Shown one piece after another: positions 49,566 through 63,730 of a DNA stretch of 64,000 nucleotides. The DNA comes from Kappaphycus alvarezii. Lineage: Eukaryota; Rhodophyta; Florideophyceae; Gigartinales; Solieriaceae. The stretch lies in NCBI GenBank assembly GCA_002205965.3, contig NADL03000634.1, forward strand, positions 62,001 to 126,000, read 5' to 3'. The position numbers and the translations under genes are program-made. The notes below the pieces were generated by a model. It was not told where the DNA came from and did no database searches. It worked only from the letters and a program-made list of their open reading frames with translations. Positions within the stretch are counted from its first letter, which is position 1. Every line of letters begins with the position of its first letter.

Positions 49566-50090
49566 TAAATGTCCAATCGTAACAGTCTGTGGTAAAGTAA
49601 AGAGTTCTCGAGGGAAAGAGTCCAGCAGGTCATTGATAAGACCAAAAGAATCAATATCTATTACAAATTCTGGGTAACCATCGTCGGTAACGTCCGTATA
49701 CTATACAACAGACTCCTATATCAAAGACGCGGGGCTATCCGAAAGAGCCAATATTTTTAAAGCAAGAAGGGAGGCTATTGTAACAATCAAAGTAATAAAG
49801 TAAACAGAAGCCAAAAATTTTAAGATAAATAAATTGAAATATTATAATTCTTCGTAACCATCATTTCATGGGATACTTACATTGAAGTTAAAAGTTCAAT
49901 GATCCCATTTAATTGTCAAAGACCCGCCCATTTCAGAAATGGTAGAGTCAAATCGGAAATAACCGCCTTTCCCAACAGAAAAATAGTTTAAAAGACTTAA
50001 AGAGGACTAATTGACTATCCATATACCAGTTTCACTCAACTACACAACCTGGCACAATACCATTCCCAAATTGCCTTCACACAGCCCACT
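49566..50090. other. No supported gene; left flank of the young LTR element
   Basis: AT-rich sequence. The five bases before 50091 are CCACT, close to CTACT after 62796, a possible target-site duplication with one mismatch. Confidence 0.45.
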
Positions 50091-50853
50091 TGTGGGAACC
50101 TGGCCTTTTATTTTCGCGCGCCCATACTGTTCTCACTACAGTACGGACAGGCTCTTCTGTCCTGGGCACACATGTAGTGCCACGTGTGATTGCCAAGTTT
50201 TAGGGCCACGTGTAGGGTCAAGGCAATTACATTTATTCCCTTAATTCTCCCTTTACTTTAGTAATTACTGTGGGACTAATTAGCTGACAGTGCCACAATA
50301 GGTGGCACCGTTTTTTCAGGGCCGTCAGCCTTAGGATCCCTACCAGTAAACGATCGAACCAATGGACCAACTTCCATCCCCAAAATTCCCTGACCAGCAC
50401 TACCGAGACCGGAGTAGTCCGGTGTAACTAGTTTGTCTAGGTTTTGCCTAGTTGAGTGACCAGCAAGCCTAGCGCTGCACGAGATCACTACAGCTAGACC
50501 AACTAGCGTGCGTCCAGAGTAGGCGGCGCTACTCGTGTCCGTAGTAGACACAGTGACCGGAATAGTCACATTGTACTAACCCTTTGGGGCCTTCCCCGGA
50601 GTAGGATCGCCTACCCTAACTAACCATCTCCCTCCTCCTTTCTCCTTTTCTCCCCTTTTTCCTTCTCAAATCCCCACTCCAGGCCCACCTGGAGGATACT
50701 ATGGCGTCCTCCTAGTCCTTTTCGAGCGCGACGTACCGGCGCTATACCCTGCTACTTTCGTAGCTGTCTAGCCCAGCTAGACTGGTCTCCCGAAGAAGAT
50801 TTGCTTTTAAAACCCCCACCTGGTGCGTGGACCTTCCATTCCATTCTACTGCA
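50091..50853 (+). mobile_element. 5' LTR of the young Ty3/gypsy chromovirus
   Basis: It starts TGTGGGAACC and is about 98% identical to 62037-62796. Its last 20 bases agree less well, so the right end (CA at 50853) is approximate. Hairpins inside include ACCGGA/TCCGGT, GTAGG/CCTAC, CTCCAGG/CCTGGAG and GTCTAG/CTAGAC (50766-50782). A possible primer-binding site, TGGTCTCTCGACC, begins about 3 bases after the end. An antisense frame of about 97 codons (50276-50569) is preserved in both LTRs. Confidence 0.85.
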
Positions 50854-51129
50854 AGTGGTCTCTCGACCTGGAAAGGTTTTACTTTCTGTGGAACCATTGA
50901 GTGGATTCTTTGAAGAAGGACTAACTTTTATTTCGTTTTGTGGTTTGTTCCACTGAAGAACCGCAAGATACCTCTTCCTTTGGATGTGAACAGCCAATGA
51001 AGAACCTCGGATCGCGCTTCGCGAGGATTTCCTCGTGTCAACTACTCCAAAAATGGAAAAGGATCGCGTACTTCGCGACCGCGCAATCAGGGAACTCCTG
51101 ATCCTCTTCCCAAGCTGGGATCGTCTCAG
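50854..51129 (+). other. Leader between the LTR and gag
   Basis: It contains the putative primer-binding site at about 50857 and several hairpins, for example ATCGCGTACTTCGCGA near 51062-51077. Confidence 0.4.
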
Positions 51130-52545
51130 TTGGTGGAACAGATAACGGGCGAACCCGTTCAAGTTGCTCAACCACCGGCGATGCCGGAGGAGTCGACTGG
51201 GATTCCCCCAGTTTCAACAAAGGCCGAAGACCTGGCCGGATCTGGATTTGAGGATGTCCCTCAAATTTTCACTAACTCCCGAGCTTCGCTTAGTGATTGC
51301 TCATTTCGAGCAAGCGCTACCAGATCGTGTGACTGTCTTCCAGTCAGCGCTGGAAGAGAAGATGAAAGAGAAGGAAGACTCATTCCACACGACTCTCCGT
51401 CAGGAGATGGTCGCCCTCTGCAAAGAGGAGCGATGAGTAGCGGATGCTACTCACGTTGGCCGACTCGTCGGAGCCGCCATGGCCGACTCACCTCTCGAAC
51501 AGAAGCTCGAGGACCTCAAGCAGGAGCTTGAGGTGTAGAAGCGCAAGGTTTCAGACTTGCGTGATAAATTGCGGGAGGTTGCCCTCCGCAGAGATCATTC
51601 TCCGGCATCTAGCCGGAGCCCCGTACCAAAAGGTACAAGTGACAGGCGTCGCAAAAGCTTTGTCCGTGACCAAGGCCCGGGTTGCCCTGGACTCCACTGT
51701 CGCGTTTATGACATCAGTGGGAAGCCACGAAGTGTCCGCAGTTACTCCGCCGAGCGCGTCAATCGCTGGGTCCAGAACCATCTGGAAAAGAAGGCCAGCA
51801 AGGCCGAGGCCGAGGATATCTCGGAATGGAAAAACCGTGGGGAGCGAGAGCTTACCCCCAAACGACAACCCTGGGTAGGTCCAAGATATGACGATCTCAG
51901 AGAGATCCACCCGGCCGAGGTGAATTTCGCTCGCGTCGTTTCGTATCGAAGGTATCGCCAGCGCAACACCGACTAGAACATCGTTCGTGACGTGCTCGCC
52001 AATACTGGCGACCATTACAAACGCCTCAAGCATTTTCTTGGCGCGCATAAGTTTGATGAGTCAGATCCCATCTCAATAATCCCGTTCTTGTCTGCGTACA
52101 AGAAGGTATGCGATAACTATCGCGTAAGTGAGGGAGCCGCCCTCATCTTATTACCACACTTTCTCTCGGGTGAGGCCCGAGAACATTTCGAAGCCAACTT
52201 CGAACTTGGCGAACAAGGTACTGTAGGATTTGACTCCTACCCTCGAGCAGTGCAGTTCTTGCTGCGCATGTACGCCACCGATCGCACGATCGAGAAGGTG
52301 GTCGAATACATCGACAACCTCCGGCAGAAGCCGGATGGAACGAAGCTAGCCTTTGCTAGTCGCCTGCGCAAGATTTTGAGGTCCTGTGGTGCGGAGTACA
52401 CCGAGGAGGACCTGATGACGCGCTTTGTAAGGGAATTCTTGCCTGACTTGAAGCCGTTGCATCAAATTGAGCGTCAATCCTCTTAGACTCGGGACAACAC
52501 GAGTTCTTTTCTGGACTTTGTCGAGAAGTCCGCAGCACTTGGGTA
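51130..52545 (+). pseudogene. gag: gag (capsid) of the young chromovirus, broken
   Basis: The frame starts proline-rich (EPVQVAQPPAMPEE at 51150-51200). It shifts to a coiled-coil segment (FEQALPDRVTVFQSALEEKM, then KEKEDS, about 51310-51430) and a basic region. Then comes a capsid-like helical domain from 51992 with HFLSGEAREHFEANF, YIDNLRQKPDG and ASRLRKILRSCG. Stops interrupt it at 51434 (TGA), 51536, 51974 and 52484 (all TAG), and frames slip near 51270 and 52545. The layout (coil, capsid-like, then zinc knuckle) is that of a Ty3/gypsy gag. Hairpins occur throughout, for example CTCAAG/CTTGAG at about 51519-51536 and GTAGGA/TCCTAC at about 52225-52242. Confidence 0.75.
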
Positions 52546-53223
52546 CGCACACCGCCCCTTGTGCAGAAGCAGGCACCCCTGCCAATATTATCCCGGAGAG
52601 CAGCAGCCCTTTCCGTGGATACCATCGACGAGGTAACCGCCTCGCAAGAGCGCCGCCGAATGGCCGCTCGACACAATGGCGATCGAATATTCGCCTTACA
52701 TCCGGAAGAGTGTATCGCCTCTTCAAGACCGCATGACTCAGCAACAGAGTTCGAGTCAGCCCGTTCACGGGTTTCTCAGGAGGAACCTGACGCAAGGTTA
52801 GCCGTGATACCATCACGTAGACCGCGGCGCCCGTCGTGGACACAGCCCACCAAGAACCAGAAACCTGGTTGTGTTACAACTGAGGTTCAACCCTCAGATT
52901 TTTGCTTTGAGTGCTACCGTTTGGGACATCGCCGTCCCAACTGTCCAGATCAGGGTATACCTGATGCAGACCCGCATTTTGCGATTGTCGTCCAGGGCAA
53001 CTACAACAAGTTGTCCAAACAACAGAAGGATTTCCTTCGAGCCGTAGGAAGAGCACCGCCCTTCCTAACTGCGGACGGGAAAGGCCTGTCTTATGTTCAA
53101 GAAGCACCGGCACCGCCGGTGAGATCGGAACCACCATCGAGGGAAGCCTCGATTATCGCAAAGAAGGATGAACTCCATGTCTCTTTTTCGGACAATGACG
53201 TTCCGACGGAGTCGAGAAAATAA
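52546..53223 (+). pseudogene. gag: Nucleocapsid with a CCHC zinc knuckle
   Basis: The open frame of about 220 codons carries one retroviral-type zinc knuckle, CFECYRLGHRRPNC (C-x2-C-x4-H-x4-C), at about residues 116-129. A basic region (SRRPRRP) comes before it and a proline-rich linker after (EAPAPPVRSEPPSREAS). It binds the element's RNA in this family. It ends at a TAA (53221), but the same frame continues into the protease. Confidence 0.8.
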
Positions 53224-53936
53224 GAGGGGTCCGTCACAGCAAGAATCCACCCACGTAACCCCCCTCCCTCGAGGGGATGGTTGCGCGTTCCCGACTCGGG
53301 ACCTCCAAAGGTTGGAATCCTACCTAGTCCTTTTGAACTTCACCGCCACGTCACAGTGGAGGAGCATCGAGCAGATCCTATCTGCTACATATCGCGATAC
53401 AACTACAAAGCTGTCGCAGAACTTGGAGTCACCCAATATATGCTTCAAGCATACAACACCGTGTCTGACACCGGTAAAGGACCAAACTTGGTCAAGGCAG
53501 CTTGCCTGCCAGAAGAGATTGCTGCTAACGCCAACCGCAAACAAGAGATAGTTAACCTATCTAGTGCTTCAAACCATCGTCTGAAGACAATGGGATTGGT
53601 AGCATTTACACTACTCATTAGGGACTTGACAGTCAAGCAACCCTTTCTAGTCGTCGAGGAACTCGACGCCGATGTTATCATCGATACTACCTTCATCGAC
53701 CAGCAGGTGGAAATCATCCACATCCGTCGCTGAGAGGTGGTCCTCTGTAGCGGAGCTACAGTGCGGATCCACAAAAGACCCGCAGCGGTACCGTTTCGTC
53801 GCGCATCAGTGAAGACTAAACCGTTCTTCGAGGAAGTTCCTCGAAACAAGCTCGTGCGGACCACCCGCCGATTTGAACTGCCTCCCGAGTCGGGGAGAGT
53901 CGTGGAAGTTCAAGCTTCCTTCAAGGGGATCTCTTA
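53224..53936 (+). pseudogene. pol: Aspartic protease domain of pol
   Basis: In the same frame as the nucleocapsid, AYNTVSDTGKGPNLVKAACL (about 53450-53510) holds the DTG active-site triad typical of Ty3/gypsy proteases. ELDADVIIDTTFIDQQ (about 53660-53706) corresponds to the flap/second-strand region of the protease. A TGA at 53731 breaks the frame. The protein continues to 53982 in this frame and then shifts. Confidence 0.75.
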
Positions 53937-55886
53937 TTGGAGACATACTCCAGACTGTACCAGAAGTCTCAGGTTAGCCTGAGCAATGGAGTTGTCTCAA
54001 CTCAACCGAGCAAGTCATTCTTGGTTAAGATCTCGAACTTCTCAACCAAGACGCGAGACCTGGCAAAGGGCCATATAGTAGGGTATGCATCGCCGATGCC
54101 CGATATTGTACTCGAGTTTAACCTCGATGAGGAGCAAACCAGCCAGGAGGAAACGCCTGTGCCGTCGCAACTCGGCCCCGCCTATGAAAAGTTGGGGGTT
54201 GATGACGTTGACTTGTAGCAACTCACCCCCGATTCTCAGAAGAAAATACGAGGCATGCTCGTCAAACACGAAGCCATGTGGTCAAGACACCTTGCTAAAA
54301 TCCTGGTAACGGAACACAGGATAGACTTGATCCCTGGGTCAGTCCCAGTGAGATCCCACCCCTATCGCGCCGGCACAAGGGCCCGCGAAGTGGAAACGGA
54401 AGAGGTCAAGCGAATGCTTGACGCAGAGGTGATTGAGCCCACTCAATCGGAATTCGCCAGCCCTGTAGTGCTGGTCCCCAAACCGGATGGGATCAAGCGG
54501 TTCTGTATTGACTACCGCAAGCTCAACGCCATCAAGCTCAAGCACAGCTACCCGTTGCCCCGTATGGATGAATTCTTACACTCCCTAGGTGAGGCAACGG
54601 TATTCACCGCCTTATATTGTAACTGCGGTTACTAGCAAATACATATCCGCGAGGCGGACAAGGAAAAGACAGACTTTTTATTTCATGAAGGCTGTTTCTG
54701 GTATTGCCGGCTGCCTTTCGGTCTGTGCAATGCACCAGCCACGTTCCCGCGGATGGTCGACATCCTTCTGGCAAGATACAAGTGGAAGTCTTGTTTGGTA
54801 GATGATTATGTCATCCAAATATACCAATATTTGTATGACCTAATCATCTTCTCCAAGTCCATCGAGGAGCACCTAGATCATGTTGACGAAATGCCCAAGG
54901 TACTCCGAAAGTCAGGAGCTTCCCTGAAATTGAAGAAGTGTTCGTGGTTCACCTCCACGGTGAACTACGTCGGCCATGCTATTCGGCCGGGCAAACTCGA
55001 GGTTGCCTCGAAGAACATTGAAGCTGTGAAAGGTTTCAAACCGCCACAGACGCAAACGCAACTTAGGAGTTTCCTCGGTCTTTGTAATTTGTATCGGAGA
55101 TTCGTCCCGAACTTCTCCATAGTGGCGGCGCTACTCAACAAGTTGTTGAAAAAGTGGAACACCTTCCAACTTCCAGAGCTTGACTGTGACCAAATGGAAG
55201 TGTTTACTTCCCTGAAGCAGGAACTTATCGAGCCGCCTGTGTTGACGTTACCCCAACCTAATCTATCCTATTCGGTCGACACCGATGCGTGCGACGAACA
55301 AGTAGGTTGTGCCCTACTTCAAGAATACCCGGATGGAACTCGCCATTCTATCGGCTATTGGAGCCGCTCGCTTGGTCAAGCCGAGAGAAATTGTTCCACG
55401 AGCGAGAAAGAATGCCTCGCTGTTGTATTGGAAGTACAACTGCTCCGCCCATACCTTGAGGGAGAATTCCAACTCTTCACAGATCACCAAGCGTTACGCT
55501 GGTGGATTACATCCACCGAAACCACCGGTCCGTTGGCTCGCAGGAGTTTACGCCTCCTTGAATTCGACTACACCTTTAGATACCGAAAGGGGGTGCAGAA
55601 TCAAATAGCAGATGCTATGTCTCGGTTGCATACCGAGGGCAAAACGGAGTTCGCCGGAGATTGGGAAGTACCTTGCTTCCTGGTCGAAGCTGAGGAGGAT
55701 TCTTCAGTCCTTAAAGAATTTTCCATCGGATTGGGATTTTCCCAACTCCGTAACGAAGCAAGGCCACCCTTGTTGAAACACGGAACATTCCCACGTGTTT
55801 TTTCCAAACGCAGGGAGCCTGCATCGGATCCTTCGAGTGTCATAGACTTCGATGACATCGACTGTGAAGACAGTCTGGACTACTAA
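53937..55886 (+). pseudogene. pol: Reverse transcriptase and RNase H of pol
   Basis: One frame (interrupted by TAG at 54216 and 54633) runs through ASPVVLVPKPDGIKRFCIDY (RT motif), TALYCNCGY*QI where LDxxSGYWQI is expected, RLPFGLCNAPATF, then QYLYDLIIFSKS where YLDDxIIFS is expected. Both RT active-site positions thus read Tyr for Asp, and about 10 codons look duplicated just before YLYD. The linker SFLGLCNLYRRFVPNFS follows. RNase H is intact by eye: YSVDTDACDEQVGCAL, STSEKECLAVV and LFTDHQALRWW. It ends QNQIADAMSRL. The domain order RT, RNase H, then integrase is Ty3/gypsy-like. Confidence 0.9.
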
Positions 55887-56667
55887 TTAGTCTCGTTTGA
55901 CGCAATCTCGGTAATAGAGCCAGCTCGTAAGCTGGAACCGCTCACAACGGAGGAGATCATCCGAGAACAAGAGAAAAATAACTTATGTAAGGAAGTGAAA
56001 GACGCCTTCACCACTGACAAACGTAAAGTTCGTGACTTAACGATCGACCAGAGTGGACTGGTCGGGCGCCTAGCGAAGATCGACTACTCAGTACAGATCT
56101 ACGTACCATCGTCGCTCCGCTCGCGTGTGTTAATGATATCTCATTTCGCAAAGATGGGAGGAACAAGAATGTACATCACCTTACGTCGTACTTTTTATTA
56201 ATTTAGCATGGCGGTGGACGTCTATAATACCGTGCGGAAATGTAAGAGCTATTCTAAAGAGCGGATCGCTCTTAGGAAGCATGCAAACTTCCTCAAGTTA
56301 TTACCAGCCTCGAGCCGACTCGAGTTTGTGGTATCGACATCATCGGTCCCTTACCAAGGACTTCCTTGGGCTATCGATATTTGTTGTTCATCACGGATAG
56401 ATGTTCGAAGCTTGTTCGAACAGTTCCATTTCGGATCGTTACCGCAGTGACGATCACCAAAGCATTCTGCGAACAATGGGTGTTCGTATACGGGAGCCCC
56501 GTATATTTGCTGTCTGACAACGGAGGTCAGTTCGTCAGCAAGTTCTTCCAGAGCATATGCTCTGTCTTGGGCACGCGTAGCATGTTTACGACGGCTTATC
56601 ATCCGCAGACCAACGGTCAGACGGAAAGATTCAACAGGACAATCCTGTCGGCCTTGCGTCACTTTTG
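55887..56667 (+). pseudogene. pol: Integrase with zinc-binding and DDE core, frameshifted
   Basis: It continues in frame after a TAA at 55884. The zinc-binding part is damaged: GHPG-type residues are lost, CxxC reads CKSY, and TFY*FSM has a TAA for the Trp of FYWPxM. After a frameshift near 56350 the core is well kept: ITDRCSK, then LSDNGGQF and YHPQTNGQTERFNRTI, with 35 residues between the second Asp and Glu, as in the DD35E family. Hairpins such as GTTCGAA/TTCGAAC (56404-56422) and ATACGGG/CCCGTAT (56493-56509) lie in the coding sequence. Confidence 0.85.
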
Positions 56668-56984
56668 CAGTGACCATGGCAGGGACTTGGACCAGTTACA
56701 TCAGGACACCTCGGACTAATGAGGATACGCTTTCATCGGGTACCCCGATGGCAGAGGAAAGTGAGGACGACCTCATCGAAGTTCCAGGTGACCTTGATCC
56801 CTACGCATTCGATCGGATAGTCGATCACGATCTTGACAGCGGATTGTACCGCGTCCGCTGGACGAACTATTCACCCAGTGATGATATCTGGGAACCCAGG
56901 TCTTCAATCCCTGACAACGCGGTGGCGCAGTATCACCGACGTAAGCGGCTGAGACCACCTCAGTACTACACTCCATCTGAGTGA
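56668..56984 (+). pseudogene. pol: Chromodomain at the integrase C-terminus
   Basis: After an acidic linker (EESEDDLIEVPGDLDP), the frame reads YAFDRIVDHDLDSGLYRVRW, then TNYSPSDDIWEPRSSI. This matches the chromodomain pattern Y-x-V-E-K-I..VRW..Y....TWEP, with Trp and the WEP motif kept. It marks the element as a chromovirus. The DDE core ends about 60-80 bp upstream, so most of the usual integrase C-terminal part (the GPY/F region) is deleted. Confidence 0.85.
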
Positions 56985-59782
56985 AAAACAGATGGCCAAA
57001 CAACTAGGAGATCCTTGGGTAACACCAATGGGGACATCCCATTGGATCACTGTTAACCAGGCACCCTGGTTTTTTACGCGGGGAGTGGGGAGGGGCCTGC
57101 TCGCGCTGGCGAAGACTAGGATTCCTAGTTACTGTGGTGAAACAACCAGGATTACCTGGTGGGGACGACTTTTATAAGAAGAAACATCCGTCTATCAGGA
57201 CTACCTGATAATGGTTTATAACCATGGCAAATTACGTTGCCATATGGAGGACCACCTCCACCTTCGTATTGTATAGGTCAACCGTACTATACTCCCAACA
57301 GGGACACTCCTGTGTACGTTGTAGTCGAACACCAGTACCCGGTGCTGACATTATATCAGTTAGGTATCCTAACTATATACGAATTGGTCGTATTACTTCT
57401 ATATGAGGAGGCCTACCTCCTTTGAGTTGATGAACTCTGAAACATTGATTTGAGAGTTGAGCAAACAGCAGAGTTGGTTTTGAAATTACCAAGTGCCAAG
57501 CCCAATTTCTGTACAGCAACGACCAGGCACACTGGTCAGGAAACCTGTCCTAATTACACTTGCATACCTGCTCAAGTGTACATCTGTACAACTGTACACT
57601 GCCAGCAAGGACAGCTGGTCAAGAATCCATGAGTCAATTGAAGGCTTGGGAGGAACTCCTCCCACTACGGAACCCTCGAGCGCGGGAGTGTGTAGATATT
57701 TTCCAACATGAGTTGGCACAAACGGAAACTCCGACTGGAAATCTCACTTCAGTCAAAGTCAGGATACCCTGACTCTGGAAGCCCTAACGCGACCCTCCAC
57801 AACTTGGCGGTCGAAAATGGCAAGGACTTCCTTGCCCAGCGAGCGAAAATCGAGTTCAACTCGACACCAACACTCTGGCTCTCTGAGTTGAACAGCGTAG
57901 ATTCACCTCTTGCACCTCACTCTACTATAGGGTACCCCTTTCTCCGCTTCTCTGGTATTACCGTTGTTCGGTCAGGAACACCTGACTACCTCTTTCCCGC
58001 GTGCCACGCTCAACTCTTGTCCTCCCTCGCGGAAGTCTGCGAGGACTCTTTTCCCTCATGATGGCAATTATCTTCCATCATACCGTTCAGGATTCCCTGA
58101 CATTACACCTTCCCGACGGGCAAACCGCCAACACCGTCCGAGTTCCAGCAAGCAATCCCCTTACTCTCTTCTCGTCGTAAATGTATGCGGTAACTACTAT
58201 CGCGTACTACAGTCAGGCCACCTGACTTTCCTTCGACACCAAATAACTCTTGTGCGAACATCGTGTCAGGACACCTGACTAACCCTACCATCAATGGACA
58301 TCCATTGCCGATCGCTAAGCAAATAAGGCAGACCTTGTTCGTACCCTGGTGCGGATACGATCGCACCCTACCGAGTCAAGGTCCCCTTGACATATGCAAG
58401 GACGGAAGCAATGTACCCCGACTGTCAACTTACTCAGGCTACCTGAGAGGAGAACAGACACGTATCAACGAGGATTACCTCGTTCACTGGAATGAGAGGG
58501 TGATTCAGTCTCCCTCTTTTACGAGTAAGGAACCTCTTACTGTAGTGGTCGCCGTAGAAGATCACACCTGTCCCTCAGGAACACCTGAGCTCAAATGGAA
58601 GGACATGGGAGAACCCTCCTACACCCTGCAAGGCGCCCTTGCGGAGCCCAGTTCATGATATGGCTCGTATCATGTCACACCGGATGGGAACTCCCATCCC
58701 ACGAGAAACTGTACTCTGTCAAGCAGAGTCAGGGTCAACAAGCCCCGCTTGTCAATAATTCAGCATTGGCTTGACCACGTGAGAATCCAGGTACCCTGGA
58801 CCGAGATAACAATATGGTGGCGTCCGCCATTGTGAAGACAGTATCGTTCAGCGCCGCTGACAACCTCAACCCTGTGGGTGCTCAAGAACAAGGCACCATT
58901 GTTGTAGAACGAATGTAACAGGTTGACCCGTTCCTGTGATTGCCCAATTAACTCCTGAGTGCTAAGGTGTTGTGAGTTGATTCCAAGACCAACTACAGAC
59001 AGACAAGGAGTTCCTCATCTTAAATGTTCATCGGGGACGGCCTCACCGCCGTCCGAGAAGAAGGAAGACAACTCAGGATGACCTGAGTTTGGTCTCAAAG
59101 AAGAAGTAGATGAGGAAGCCATCCTCGGAGTCGCATGCGAGTGTAACCATACCCAACGCTGCTGTGTTCAGGAATTCCCTGAACTACACTTAATCGAGTA
59201 CGACTGTCAAGGAAAAACCTCGACAGGTGAAGATTGTTCACTATACACATCTGTATCGCCCATGACTCACATACAAGGCACGACTTGCCCCACTACAACG
59301 GCTGATTTGACAAGGACACCTTGTCCTGAAGACACCGCGCTGGCGTACGTAACAACACCCTCGCATCAGCTGTGTTGCAAAGGCGACCCTTAAACGACCA
59401 TTATGGTATGCAAACGAGCTTACTCGCTCGTACAAATCTTAGTGAGCACGGGTCTCACTCTCTCAGATGGATATGGGGGAGCACGACCCCACTCGACATC
59501 AAGATTCACTTATTTTGTAAATACGTAACAGTACACCGCTGTTACTATGTACAAGCTTCTGTTCAGTCAAAGCTGAACAGGGAAGACGCCTCAACGAACT
59601 GTGAACTGCAGAATAATGAGGACACAAAAAGCAGTATGTTTCACAACGGAGTGTGAAGTAACCGACCCGTACTTTCATTTAAAACAATTGCGGGCTATCC
59701 TCATGACTATAAATACGCTCCAGACCCGTATTGGCCGGCGTGGAGGTCTTTTCGGCCCCATACATCGGAAGATTCTCCCCCT
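56985..59782. other. Hairpin-dense non-coding part of the young LTR element
   Basis: About 2.8 kb behind pol holds no recognisable protein. It has perfect hairpins every 30-60 bp: 57025-57045 (8-bp arms), 57055-57071 (7), 57115-57129 (6), 57145-57160 (6), 57193-57210 (7), 57211-57225 (6), 57224-57243 (7), 57245-57260 (6), 57358-57374 (7), and so on past 58700. Arm sequences differ but often end AGG at the loop, with CCT after it. Open frames here (for example 58263-58658) are weak. Confidence 0.7.
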
Positions 59783-61072
59783 CTACAACCGCAGGCGCCG
59801 GTCCAGCCGACGTGACGCCTTCGGGGAGCACGATCGCTCTCCCAGACACGAGGATCTCTTGTAGGAGATCCAACACGCCGACAATGGTGATGCCATCGGA
59901 CTGCCCGTTCCGAACAAGGGCCGCCGAAAACGACGGATCCCATATGTTGTACTCAACTGTGCTAAGTATGCGCTCGGCATGTTTTTAATCCTCACGGGAA
60001 CACCCCGCTGAGCAGCGGACGGGAAAGCCCCCGTCCCAATGGCACTGCCAAACGCCCCATCCACACCCTTTGGACGAGATTCTTGCGGCAGATGCCGCAG
60101 ACTACCATCCAGACATGAACCTCGGTCATCACGCGAGAATGGTCCGTCTGCATTGCGTGGGATCAACCCACCTGGAGGGCTAACAGGAGCCCATATCGCC
60201 GGGTTGAACTCAACCCAATCCCCACTAGTATCGACTGGTGTACAAATATCCTGGACCTCGGGCAGGATACGGTTCGCAGGGGGAACATGCAACCAGCGAA
60301 GCTGATCAACGAAGTCTAGCATGGCGCTAACATCCTGACTGTCATCCTCAGGACTATTCGGAAGTATCGCTTCCATACCCATCTCGCGTACTGCTTCGAC
60401 CACAGCCCTTGGCAAGTACCATAGCTTGCCCCTGCGTTCCTCGTACATGGCCTCGACAACGCAGTTCTTTTCCCATTCGTAAAAAATGAAATTCCACGAG
60501 GCATCCTCGTCATTGGCAAAACTGCCGGAAATTTCCAATCCGCGGTATGACAGATACCAGGGAGTCTCTGGTAAGAAGCCGTAAGGTACCTCATATTTGT
60601 GGAACCAAACCGGCACGGGAACATACTTCCCACCCAGCGCCGCTGAGTCTAGGACCTCTGCCTCTCGGTTGTGGTAGCCGGGGAACACACCTTGGGTGTG
60701 ACGCATCTTGCGTTCGTACTTACGATCCCCATAGATCGGGTAATAGTCCCGATTCGCCCGACTAACAACGTTCGGGGGAACATCCGTACGAACTGGGAGC
60801 AAGGAGCGCTCCCGCTCAAACATTAAGGCCAACGAAAAGTATCCGTCACAGACCATATCATCCCTATTTAACGAGTAAATCGTCGTAGCGTACGGTGCCT
60901 CATTGGCACACCGCGCAAAAGCCAAATCAAGGTTCTCCTCGACAGCAAAACGCAGATTGAAGTACTGACCGCGTCGGCGTGCGCAGGCACGAAGTATCTC
61001 GATGCGACGCTGGCCGAAGGACCCAGCGTCAGTGTCGAAGCGCACCTGCTAGTCTCTGTTGGCAACCATCGC
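59783..61072 (-). CDS. Antisense accessory frame inside the LTR element, unknown function
   Basis: The minus-strand frame is open for 420 codons (61045 to 59783), with a single TAG at 61049 separating it from an in-frame ATG at about 61071 that begins MVANRD. Together they make about 430 codons. Visible parts are EILRACARRRGQYFNLRF (residues about 15-35), LMFERERSLLP, an aromatic-rich middle (YYPIYGDRKY, VPVWFHKYEVPYGFLP and WYLSYRGLEI), FYEWEKN, LPRAVVEAVREMGMEAILP, FVDQLRWLHVP and a basic C-terminus (RRFRR, ASRRLDRRLRL). There is no signal peptide, no clear membrane segment, and no family I know. The length, proline/aromatic content and lack of stops argue for a protein. Opposite-strand accessory genes near the 3' LTR are known in a few plant and insect gypsy elements; homology to those is not shown. 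Confidence 0.5.
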
Positions 61073-62036
61073 CCTCGGGATACCCGGAGCGGCACGGGGC
61101 AGGTCACCTGCCCTCGCAGCTAATCCAGCTATCCCGAGGGAGAAGACCGGAAATGACAAGACGGGCTGCCCGTTAGTTGACTGAGGAAAAGAAGCTGATG
61201 ATGGATGACGATGGGGGATGTGGAGGAAGGACGATGAGGATGTGTGATGGTGAAGGAAGACAAGCGGATGGCGACAAGATGTCTGATCGGACTTTGGTGT
61301 TGGACTTTGGTGTTGGAAGAGGTGACGGATACAAATGAAATCACCAGGACTCCTGGTTAAATAACGCACTGCACAGCAGAAGGGTGCACCGAAATACAAG
61401 GAAATCCCTTGCAACGTGACAGAATCCCCACCTCGATTACCGAATTTTATTGGTTTTTCAGGTTTGTGCCGCACGTGCCAGGCACAACCATCGATGGATT
61501 GACCACAGTACCACTGGGAACCCCCAGTGAAGGTATTTGAGATACCAACGAAGGGGCGTGTTCACACGACCGCCCCCAACTATTTTAATTCACCAGGTCA
61601 ACATGGCCCGACTCGAGTTGCACCTCGAAGGAAATATACGGAATTTGGAAACCGCGCGCGTGCAACTGCGACCCACGATGGGTGTAACGTCTAGTAGCTA
61701 CGTTACTACGTGGTAAAAGTCAGTCTTACTAACCCCCTTTTCAGGTAAGACCTGAAACGGCAAATTACTCGGATGGGGTTAACCACTCCCCATACCGACA
61801 CGACCTTGTCGAGGATAACCTCGAACAGATTGATATCAGCGTACTGTCGCTAACTAGCGAAGCTAGTTCGGCACCCAAAGTACCGGGTTGCCAACTTGAT
61901 CGGGACCCCCGACCACGATGCGAAGTGAGTGTTACTCATTCGGAAACGCAGTGCAAACCGCATCCAAGACCGGTTCACTGGTGTTCTTCCTCGCGTTTTT
62001 CGCGGTAGGACACGCCGGATGCTGGGCGTAAGGGTA
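61073..62036. other. Region between the antisense frame and the 3' LTR
   Basis: It contains the presumed 5' flank of the antisense gene. Its frame extends further upstream (to 61474) as a proline/serine/histidine-rich open stretch that may be leader or coding. Hairpins continue. No promoter was identified. Confidence 0.4.
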
Positions 62037-62796
62037 TGAGGGAACCTGGGCTTTATTTTCGCGCGTCCATACTGTTCTCACTACAGTACGGACAGGCTCT
62101 TCTGTCCTGGGCACACATGTAGTGCCACGTGTGATTGCCACGTTTTAGGGCCACGTGTAGGGCCAAGTCAATTACATTTATTCCCTTAATTCTCCCTTTA
62201 TTTTAGTAATTACTGTGGGACTAATTAGCTGACAGTGCCACAATAGGTGGCACCGTTTTTTCAGGGCCGTCAGCCTTAGGATCCCTACCAGTAAACGATC
62301 GAACCAATGGACCGACTTCCATCCCCAAAATTCCCTGACCAGCACTACCGAGACCGGAGTAGTCCGGTGTAACTAGTTTGTCTAGGTTTTGCCTAGTTGA
62401 GTGACCAGCAAGCCTAGCGCTGCACGAGATCACTACAGCTAGACCAACTAGCGTGCGTCCAGAGTAGGCGGCGCTACTCGTGTCCGTAGTAGACACAGTG
62501 ACCGGAATAGTCACATTGTACTAACCCTTTGGGGCCTTCCCCGGAGTAGGATCGCCTACCCTAACTAACCATCTCCCTCCTCCTTTCTCCTTTTCTCCCC
62601 TTTTTACTTCTCAAATCCCCACTCCAGGCCCACCTGGAGGATACTATGGCGTCCTCCTAGTCCTTTTCGAGCGCGACGTACCGGCGCTTTACCCTGCTAC
62701 TTTCGTAGCTGTAGCCCAGCTAGACTGGTCTCCCGAAGAAGCTTCGCTTTTAAAACCCCCACCTGGTGCGTGGACCTTCTAGTCTATGCTACTACA
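62037..62796 (+). mobile_element. 3' LTR of the young Ty3/gypsy chromovirus
   Basis: It starts TGAGGGAACC and is about 98% identical to 50091-50853. Compared with the 5' LTR it lacks two bases in the GTCTAG/CTAGAC hairpin but has a perfect CGAA/TTCG hairpin near 62743-62755, where the 5' copy is imperfect. The end near 62796 is approximate. Confidence 0.85.
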
Positions 62797-63730
62797 CTAC
62801 TGCTGCTATCCCCAGCCGCACCCAAGCAAACAATACCCTTCACAAACTGGCGACGTGGCCGGTAACCGAGATACACAACTTGCCTAATACTCAGCCACGG
62901 AGGGAGATGTGACGGATACAGAATCAAAGTACAAATGCCCTGTTTTCGATGTATTTTACGAGATTGGTGGATCCCTAGCCATCATTGATATGAACAGTTT
63001 TGATTCGTCTGAATTGCATGGGGTATGGAAAAACTTGGCAGACACTGTAAATGAACGACACAATGTCAAGTCTGGCCGAAAATCAATTTATAATGGGAAG
63101 GATATGCTGTTTATGGTGCTACCTACTTTGAAGTACGGAGGGCAATGGGAGATCGTCCTCAAGGCTTTTTGCTTCAAGGGCCCGGCTTTTCAACGAATGA
63201 TGGCAATTTTCAGTGATTTGCTGAGAAAAACTCCATATGACGCTTTGGTGGTGCGTAATTTAACTTTTTTATATTTGCTGACTTATATCAAGAAGAGCAG
63301 AAGTTTAAGCAATCTTCGGCTGCTCGCTATGCTACTGATGTAACGTTTCATCAAGTACCCCGACCGACAGAAAACTTGCAAGAAGGTGAAGTTTATTTTA
63401 GTTATAAGCACAAATTGTATTGATATTTGGTGATAGTCAGCATTTTTTGAAATGGACTTGCAGTTAACCGCACGAATAATTACCCTGGATCCGTCTGGAC
63501 TGGAGATTTTCCAGCGCAACGTTATATTCCATCGCGCTGCTTTGAAGAAAACTTCGCCAGATGGAGATATTGGGGGTTTACATGGAATGGTTGGAGAGTA
63601 TCCAGAGCAGTGGGCAGTGCCGATGGACTAAGATTATGGAGTGGTGGCTGAGCTTGTAAGAGCTATTATATTGAGGTAAAAAGCCGATTTATGGGCGTTT
63701 TCTTAGGGAAGAAGAGGTAACAAATAGAAA
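62797..63730 (+). pseudogene. Harbinger-like (DDE_Tnp_4) transposase, broken
   Basis: The first part (from about 62909, no clear ATG) contains SGRKSIYNGKDMLFMVLPTL, KYGGQWE and KAFCFKGPAFQRMM, the N-terminal block of Harbinger-type transposases. After a frameshift near 63290, TDVTFHQVPRPTEN (first catalytic Asp), EGEVYFSYKHKLY* and NGLAV..NNYPGSV follow, with stops. A further shift gives GGLHGMVGEYPEQWAVPMD (second catalytic region). The 3' LTR ends about 100 bp upstream, so the LTR element may have inserted in its promoter or 5' end. Confidence 0.75.

Follow-up and report, generated by a model that had tools for sequence, protein, structure and literature searches.

Short perfect hairpins along the whole length of a Kappaphycus alvarezii LTR retrotransposon, probably maintained by selection on a folded genome

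The stretch of DNA analysed here (the window) comprises 64,000 nucleotides of the Kappaphycus alvarezii assembly GCA_002205965.3 (contig NADL03000634.1, positions 62,001 to 126,000 of the forward strand). Positions 50091-62796 of the window are occupied by a long terminal repeat (LTR) retrotransposon of 12.7 kb, which carries a short perfect hairpin about every 80 nt over its whole length. The comparison of copies and relatives of this element indicates that natural selection maintains the hairpins in active copies and that dead copies lose them at the neutral rate. We consider it probable that selection has shaped a single-stranded genome, most likely the genomic RNA, to form many separate short stem-loops from end to end.

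Unless stated otherwise, perfect arms of at least 6 bp enclosing a loop of 0-10 nt were counted as hairpins. The element contains 176 of them against 27.7 +/- 5.7 in 50 dinucleotide shuffles (maximum 39), a 6.4-fold enrichment, and every part of it is enriched over such shuffles, from 4.4- to 7.8-fold. Over positions 1-50090 of the window, 144 were counted, with 128 in 5 shuffles (1.12-fold). The excess is confined to loops of 1-10 nt, with a peak at 3-4, and to arms of 5-9 bp; within the element there is no excess at loop 0, next to none at loops of 11-30 nt, and arms of at least 10 bp are absent. Spacing is only mildly more even than random (coefficient of variation 0.73-0.88). An earlier note on this DNA had singled out a number of hairpins and put the chance rate at about one per 800 bp, a figure that is right for random sequence. 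Each of the hairpins was found in its place, and the count of nine within 57025-57374 is exact at arms of at least 6 and loops of 1-8; the one at 54947-54965 is present with an arm of 7 bp, one base longer than noted. The densest part is the stretch behind pol, where many hairpins have the apex CAGG-loop-CCTG. The parts of the element, with their hairpins and the mean in shuffled sequence, are:

50091..50853, plus strand: 5' LTR (TG...CA), from repeat and alignment, ends read; 10 hairpins against 1.9
50854..53223, plus strand: leader and gag, frames interrupted, Retrotrans_gag at 51977-52486; 34 hairpins against 6.1
53224..56984, plus strand: pol, frames interrupted; 46 hairpins against 8.3
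53827..53845, plus strand: 9-bp hairpin with a 1-nt loop, the longest arm class seen
54405..54448, plus strand: two adjacent 7-bp hairpins in the reverse transcriptase (RT) region (54405-54422 and 54431-54448), common to the young copies and the sister family
54636-55886, plus strand: RT and RNase H (Pfam)
56276-56719, plus strand: integrase core (Pfam)
56451-56984, plus strand: chromodomain (Pfam)
56985..59782, plus strand: post-pol stretch of 2.8 kb, longest stop-to-stop frame 154 aa; 51 hairpins against 6.5 (7.8-fold)
57025..57374, plus strand: the nine hairpins (arm at least 6, loop 1-8)
59783..61048, minus strand: antisense open reading frame (ORF) of 421 aa; 14 hairpins against 2.8
61049..62036, plus strand: stretch from the antisense ORF to the 3' LTR; 11 hairpins against 2.5 (61049-62035)
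62037..62796, plus strand: 3' LTR (TG...CA), from repeat and alignment, ends read

The distribution of the trait was surveyed in 28 RT-bearing loci of 10 kb from the same genome (designated by L numbers), taken from 150 scored RT matches among 10,224 candidates. Three of them (L020, L023 and L024), 99% identical to one another and 75% identical to the window element over gag-pol, form a sister family that is 6.5-8.1-fold enriched, and L025, which represents another family of the clade, is 4.0-fold enriched. The other 24 loci do not share the trait (0.91-2.04-fold); together with the low value for the rest of the window, this agrees with the earlier statement that older elements of the window lack the hairpins. 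Within 5.5 kb round the RT, enrichment is 7.9-fold for the window element, 8.6, 7.7 and 9.7 for L023, L020 and L024, 4.6 for L025, 1.65 for L026 and 1.36 for L022; the remaining 23 rows, which include the window's own flank, range over 0.97-1.80. Among the loci sampled, dense hairpins are restricted to one clade, in three families of which there is one hairpin per 60-105 nt, typically with 6-7 Watson-Crick pairs and a loop of about 3-5 nt. L022 and L026 belong to the same clade (63% RT identity to L023) and yet are hairpin-poor (1.1-1.65-fold), which makes them natural comparators for the role of the hairpins. As for positions, 16 of 34 are common to the window element and L023 (null 1.5). The hairpins of L025 co-locate with those of L023 in 0 of 24 cases and with those of the window element in 1 of 24, about the chance level (null 1.1 and 0.7); the trait recurs but its positions do not. 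The hairpin-rich part of L025 (1-7600, 4-4.6-fold), without shared positions or the purine apex described below, represents another occurrence in this genome, of separate origin or long diverged. Enrichment in 28 more distant relatives from other genomes (RT identity 36-49%) ranges from 0.4- to 2.4-fold. Their contigs (L030-L057), filed as bacterial or archaeal metagenome-assembled genomes (MAGs) with a Ty3/gypsy-like RT, are probably misbinned eukaryotic DNA.

The density also exceeds what codon content provides. When the synonymous codons of the open pol frame of L023 (1091 codons) were shuffled 200 times, 8.5 +/- 3.0 hairpins resulted (maximum 19), whereas the frame itself holds 62, a 7.3-fold excess. 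The pairing classes of codon positions in these 62 hairpins are uneven: 27 are 1-1/2-3, 19 are 1-3/2-2 and 16 are 3-3/1-2, the null shares being 0.245, 0.406 and 0.35, respectively. Stems are found at 23% of the residues that are at least 90% conserved among 17 homologues, the same as over the RT segment as a whole (other conservation bins 21, 34 and 21%). Taken together, these two observations fit hairpins that would have been written largely by silent changes.

A way to separate selection from decay is offered by the RT segment, present at 40 places, of which six (L063-L068) were compared along with the window element and L023. L063 and L064, at 99.9% identity, carry 26 and 27 hairpins in 1.63 kb; the window element is 93.6% identical to both, and its corresponding segment carries 18. 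Relative to L063, changes in the window element, L065, L066 and L067 are spread about evenly over the three codon positions, which is expected of dead copies, and we have taken them as such. In L068 and the sister family, most differences from L063 fall on third positions, the mark of protein constraint, and these were therefore taken as active lineages. In the four dead copies, stems decay at the neutral rate: 58 of 1316 stem sites have changed (4.4%) against 215 of 4761 outside (4.5%), and 59 of 104 L063 hairpins are retained, with 56.5 expected. Since ascertainment alone can halve the rate of change in stems, we used a corrected test and then stems defined in an outgroup. Plain stem conservation between the window element and the sister family, first overrated for this reason, was superseded by the outgroup test.

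With stems defined in L023 as the outgroup, the third positions that differ between L063 and L068 amount to 10% in stems (14/137) and 21% outside (78/364; one-sided p = 0.002), while first and second positions changed in 17/258 and 45/740 cases, respectively. Over those columns, stems of the dead copies have not changed significantly less than other sites (one-sided p 0.24-0.98; summed 30/548 against 72/1458), and the window element is even higher in stems (15/137 against 22/364). Of the 26 hairpins of L063, 15 survive in L023, against 2.3 predicted from the rate outside stems (or about 8 by our own arithmetic for ascertainment, which treats the L063 branch as unmutated), and 10 survive in L068 (5.5 expected). 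The earlier note had suggested looking for compensatory substitutions, and double changes do mostly restore pairing: in three directed comparisons with overlapping data, 8/9, 6/10 and 9/12 of the pairs changed on both sides have re-paired, compared with 94/256 for chance complementary columns, and between the window element and L023 the figures are 16/28 and 25/49. The ascertainment-corrected test on the window element gave a modest excess, 29 of 74 stems being unchanged against 28%.

The folding excess was estimated as the minimum folding energy difference (MFED) in sampled (not tiled) windows of 375 nt with 12 shuffles each. It reached 15.1% in the window element (15 windows), and 22.6% in L023 and 14.8% in L025 (13 windows each). 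Three controls gave 1.4, 3.0 and 9.0%, and a further 20, each sampled in 8 windows with 10 shuffles per window, gave 3.1 +/- 3.5% with a maximum of 10.4%. Three loci, L012, L013 and L015, have a raised MFED (7.7-10.4%) with hairpins only 1.6-2.0-fold enriched. Plus and minus strands gave 15.1/13.5% for the window element, 22.6/20.0% for L023 and 14.8/12.8% for L025, and the loops are A-rich and G-poor on the plus strand; both features fit RNA, and the genomic RNA appears a likelier target of selection than complementary DNA (cDNA). In the 4-nt loops of the window element (n=31) the first base is A in 16 and T in 1, and the last is A in 19 and T in 3. The pattern is weaker in L023 (n=37; first A 18, T 4; last A 10, T 11), and L025 (n=11) has T first in 7 and A in 2. 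Being strand-specific, this loop composition would speak for a single-stranded molecule.

A further regularity lies in the stems next to the loop. With one LTR counted and loops of 1-8 nt, the window element has 147 hairpins, of which 30 have AGG and none has CCT as the loop-proximal triplet of the 5' arm, and among 163 of L023 the triplet is AGG in 26 and again never CCT; all-purine and all-pyrimidine 5' apices stand at 66:6 and 69:5. In these two of the three families the 5' arm ends at the loop in AGG, GGA or GGG, and the reverse is almost never seen. Elsewhere the purine to pyrimidine counts are 7:19 of 99 hairpins (five RNA phages) and 64:105 of 511 (18 other elements). We rejected a reading of the purine apex as strand asymmetry, as the arms read alike on both strands and the bias is one of orientation. 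By nearest-neighbour rules stacking energies do not depend on the orientation of the apex, so stability alone does not explain it. The oriented apex hints at a protein reader, with Gag as the natural candidate, acting in packaging. A family-specific hairpin code (RGG-loop-CCY) read by the element's own Gag as dispersed packaging signals is conceivable, but we hold it to be rather doubtful.

We propose that the element genome, most likely as RNA, would fold over its whole length into independent short stem-loops, that selection would keep these in active lineages while the stems of dead copies decay neutrally and, as a less certain step, that a protein such as Gag might read them in packaging. 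Several observations weigh against this proposal. In 100-nt windows, neither RNA nor DNA parameters gave a significant difference between strands (paired p never below 0.12). G.U is not favoured over other mismatches in broken or one-mismatch stems, and among stems of at least 7 pairs round one mismatch A.C outnumbers G.T by 25 to 9, the opposite of what plus-strand RNA would lead one to expect. The tolerance of G.U proved a weak test of RNA folding, as the five RNA phages, taken as positive control, also have G.T about as often as A.C. The selection test comes from one coding segment of 1.65 kb and few copies, and with stems ascertained in L063 itself 12 of 25 are unchanged against a neutral ceiling of 42% (p = 0.35). 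Because L022 and L026 lack the trait, the hairpins are dispensable for the life cycle. Any sequence-specific reading is weakened by L025, which has no purine apex (12:14 of 72), and by the loops, which change freely. Of the earlier suggestion that local structure is selected along the entire genomic RNA, selection is borne out by third positions, hairpin survival and re-pairing, while RNA as the selected molecule is likely only.

Other explanations have been considered. The excess could arise artificially from base composition, codon choice or a bias in dinucleotides, as the GC content of the element (0.49-0.54 in 2-kb bins) lies above most of the window. However, a 6-7-fold excess persists over dinucleotide and synonymous-codon shuffles, and L022, of the same clade and with a GC content of 0.53, is only 1.1-fold enriched, which leaves this explanation extremely improbable. 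Alternatively, the selected molecule might be the first-strand (minus) cDNA, whose single-stranded hairpins would help or protect reverse transcription or plus-strand priming. The surplus of A.C, which is G.T on the minus strand, points that way, as does that of C.T over A.G (34 against 18, at 6 pairs or more), and the purine-rich 5' arms beside the loop may recall primer tracts. Yet the surplus of A.C is missing in L025 and the numbers are small, the plus-strand loops are A-rich, each of the three families has a slightly greater MFED on the plus strand, and folding with DNA parameters shows no strand difference; we regard selection on the cDNA as unlikely.

We give a somewhat lower chance still to the possibility that the perfect hairpins have no function and are generated and restored by template switching or fold-back copying in the course of reverse transcription. 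A template-switch mechanism for hairpins is described in PMC8794818, where such an origin is proposed for the base-pair asymmetry of stems. The Watson-Crick arms are perfect and without preference for G.U, the orientation bias of the apex could reflect fold-back priming, and the copies, 53-99% identical, are all products of reverse transcription. Nevertheless, among hairpins with at least 2 broken pairs in the other family, changes limited to one arm number 5 of 24 (5.8 expected) and 12 of 46 (11.3 expected), a test whose power is limited at about 25% divergence, where later point changes blur the signal. By eye, no clear event was seen in the difference clusters of three sister copies about 99% identical (also of limited power). 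Template switching does not predict conserved third positions alongside unchanged first and second positions, and stems are equally frequent at strongly conserved residues. The conversion of imperfect into perfect palindromes, which the earlier note had offered as its other option, thus fares poorly, the changes being spread over both arms as if independent, within the limited power of these tests.

As to its identity, the element matches Retrotrans_gag, RVT_1, two RNase H models, rve and Chromo (Pfam) and is therefore a Ty3/gypsy chromovirus. The order of its pol domains is RT, RNase H, integrase and then chromodomain (PF00078, PF17917/PF17919, PF00665, PF00385), a zinc-knuckle match at 52471-53223 is weak and below the cut-off, and the flanks CCACT and CTACT are a target-site duplication with one mismatch. 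In the best 120 of 307 protein matches the RT has relatives of up to 60% identity, those with an organism name being five from Chondrus crispus and one from a bacterial MAG, which by itself points to a red alga as the probable host; no relatives were confirmed in viral contigs, and Rfam gave no match at gathering scores in 50000-63000. The antisense ORF is without a Pfam match, the protein search gave it a single homologue (P0121, 45% identity), and its stretch aligns in part with L020 and L023 at about 72%. The two LTRs differ by 17 substitutions at 760 aligned sites (2.2%), five of the 17 lying within the last 17 bases. The RT segment (54219-55886) differs by 6.4% from the young copies L063 and L064, with codon positions hit about equally. 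The low LTR divergence beside this figure would mean either that the LTRs were homogenised or that the element was copied from an already dead template. Like Ty3/gypsy chromoviruses in general, it has LTRs, gag, RT, RNase H and an integrase whose core is followed by a chromodomain; its length of 12.7 kb, the 2.8-kb post-pol stretch, the antisense ORF and the saturation with hairpins set it apart from typical ones.

The closest parallel is genome-scale ordered RNA structure (GORS) of positive-strand RNA viruses such as coronaviruses and hepatitis C virus (HCV), for which PMC7642675 gives an MFED of 15% (SARS-CoV-2) and 7-9% (HCV). The element resembles these in its genome-wide folding excess (15-23% here), in sequential stem-loops within coding sequence whose positions are poorly conserved between distant relatives, and in the lower variability of paired sites (here third positions, 14/137 against 78/364). 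It differs in its short perfect stems of 6-7 bp, 14-18 per kb and without arms of at least 10 bp, and in the purine-oriented apex of two families. Being an LTR retrotransposon and not a positive-strand RNA virus, it would work like GORS without being a member of that class. The RNA phages measured (MS2, Qbeta, PP7, GA and AP205; L058-L062) also have a high MFED (27.8% in MS2, 29.0% in Qbeta, 22.9% in PP7), but only 3.5-8.4 perfect hairpins per kb (2.0-3.5-fold) and no purine-rich apex (7:19). With dispersed packaging signals, as set out in PMC6281560, the element shares many dispersed stem-loops and, in two of the three families, perhaps a common motif near the loop; unlike them, it has this motif in the stem apex and variable loops, and the motif is absent from L025.

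Because the genome keeps both young and dead copies of the element, selection on structure can be separated from mutation in the same sequence. Pervasive selected structure is known in RNA viruses; for retrotransposons, we found no report of genome-wide ordered structure in the literature searched, whose coverage left out most subscription journals. On the more doubtful reading with Gag, packaging-signal-mediated assembly would have its counterpart in a retrotransposon, spelled in coding sequence through mostly silent substitutions. The element offers a way to test whether dense local structure serves to pack retrotransposon genomes, to conceal them from RNA silencing or to order them in some other way.

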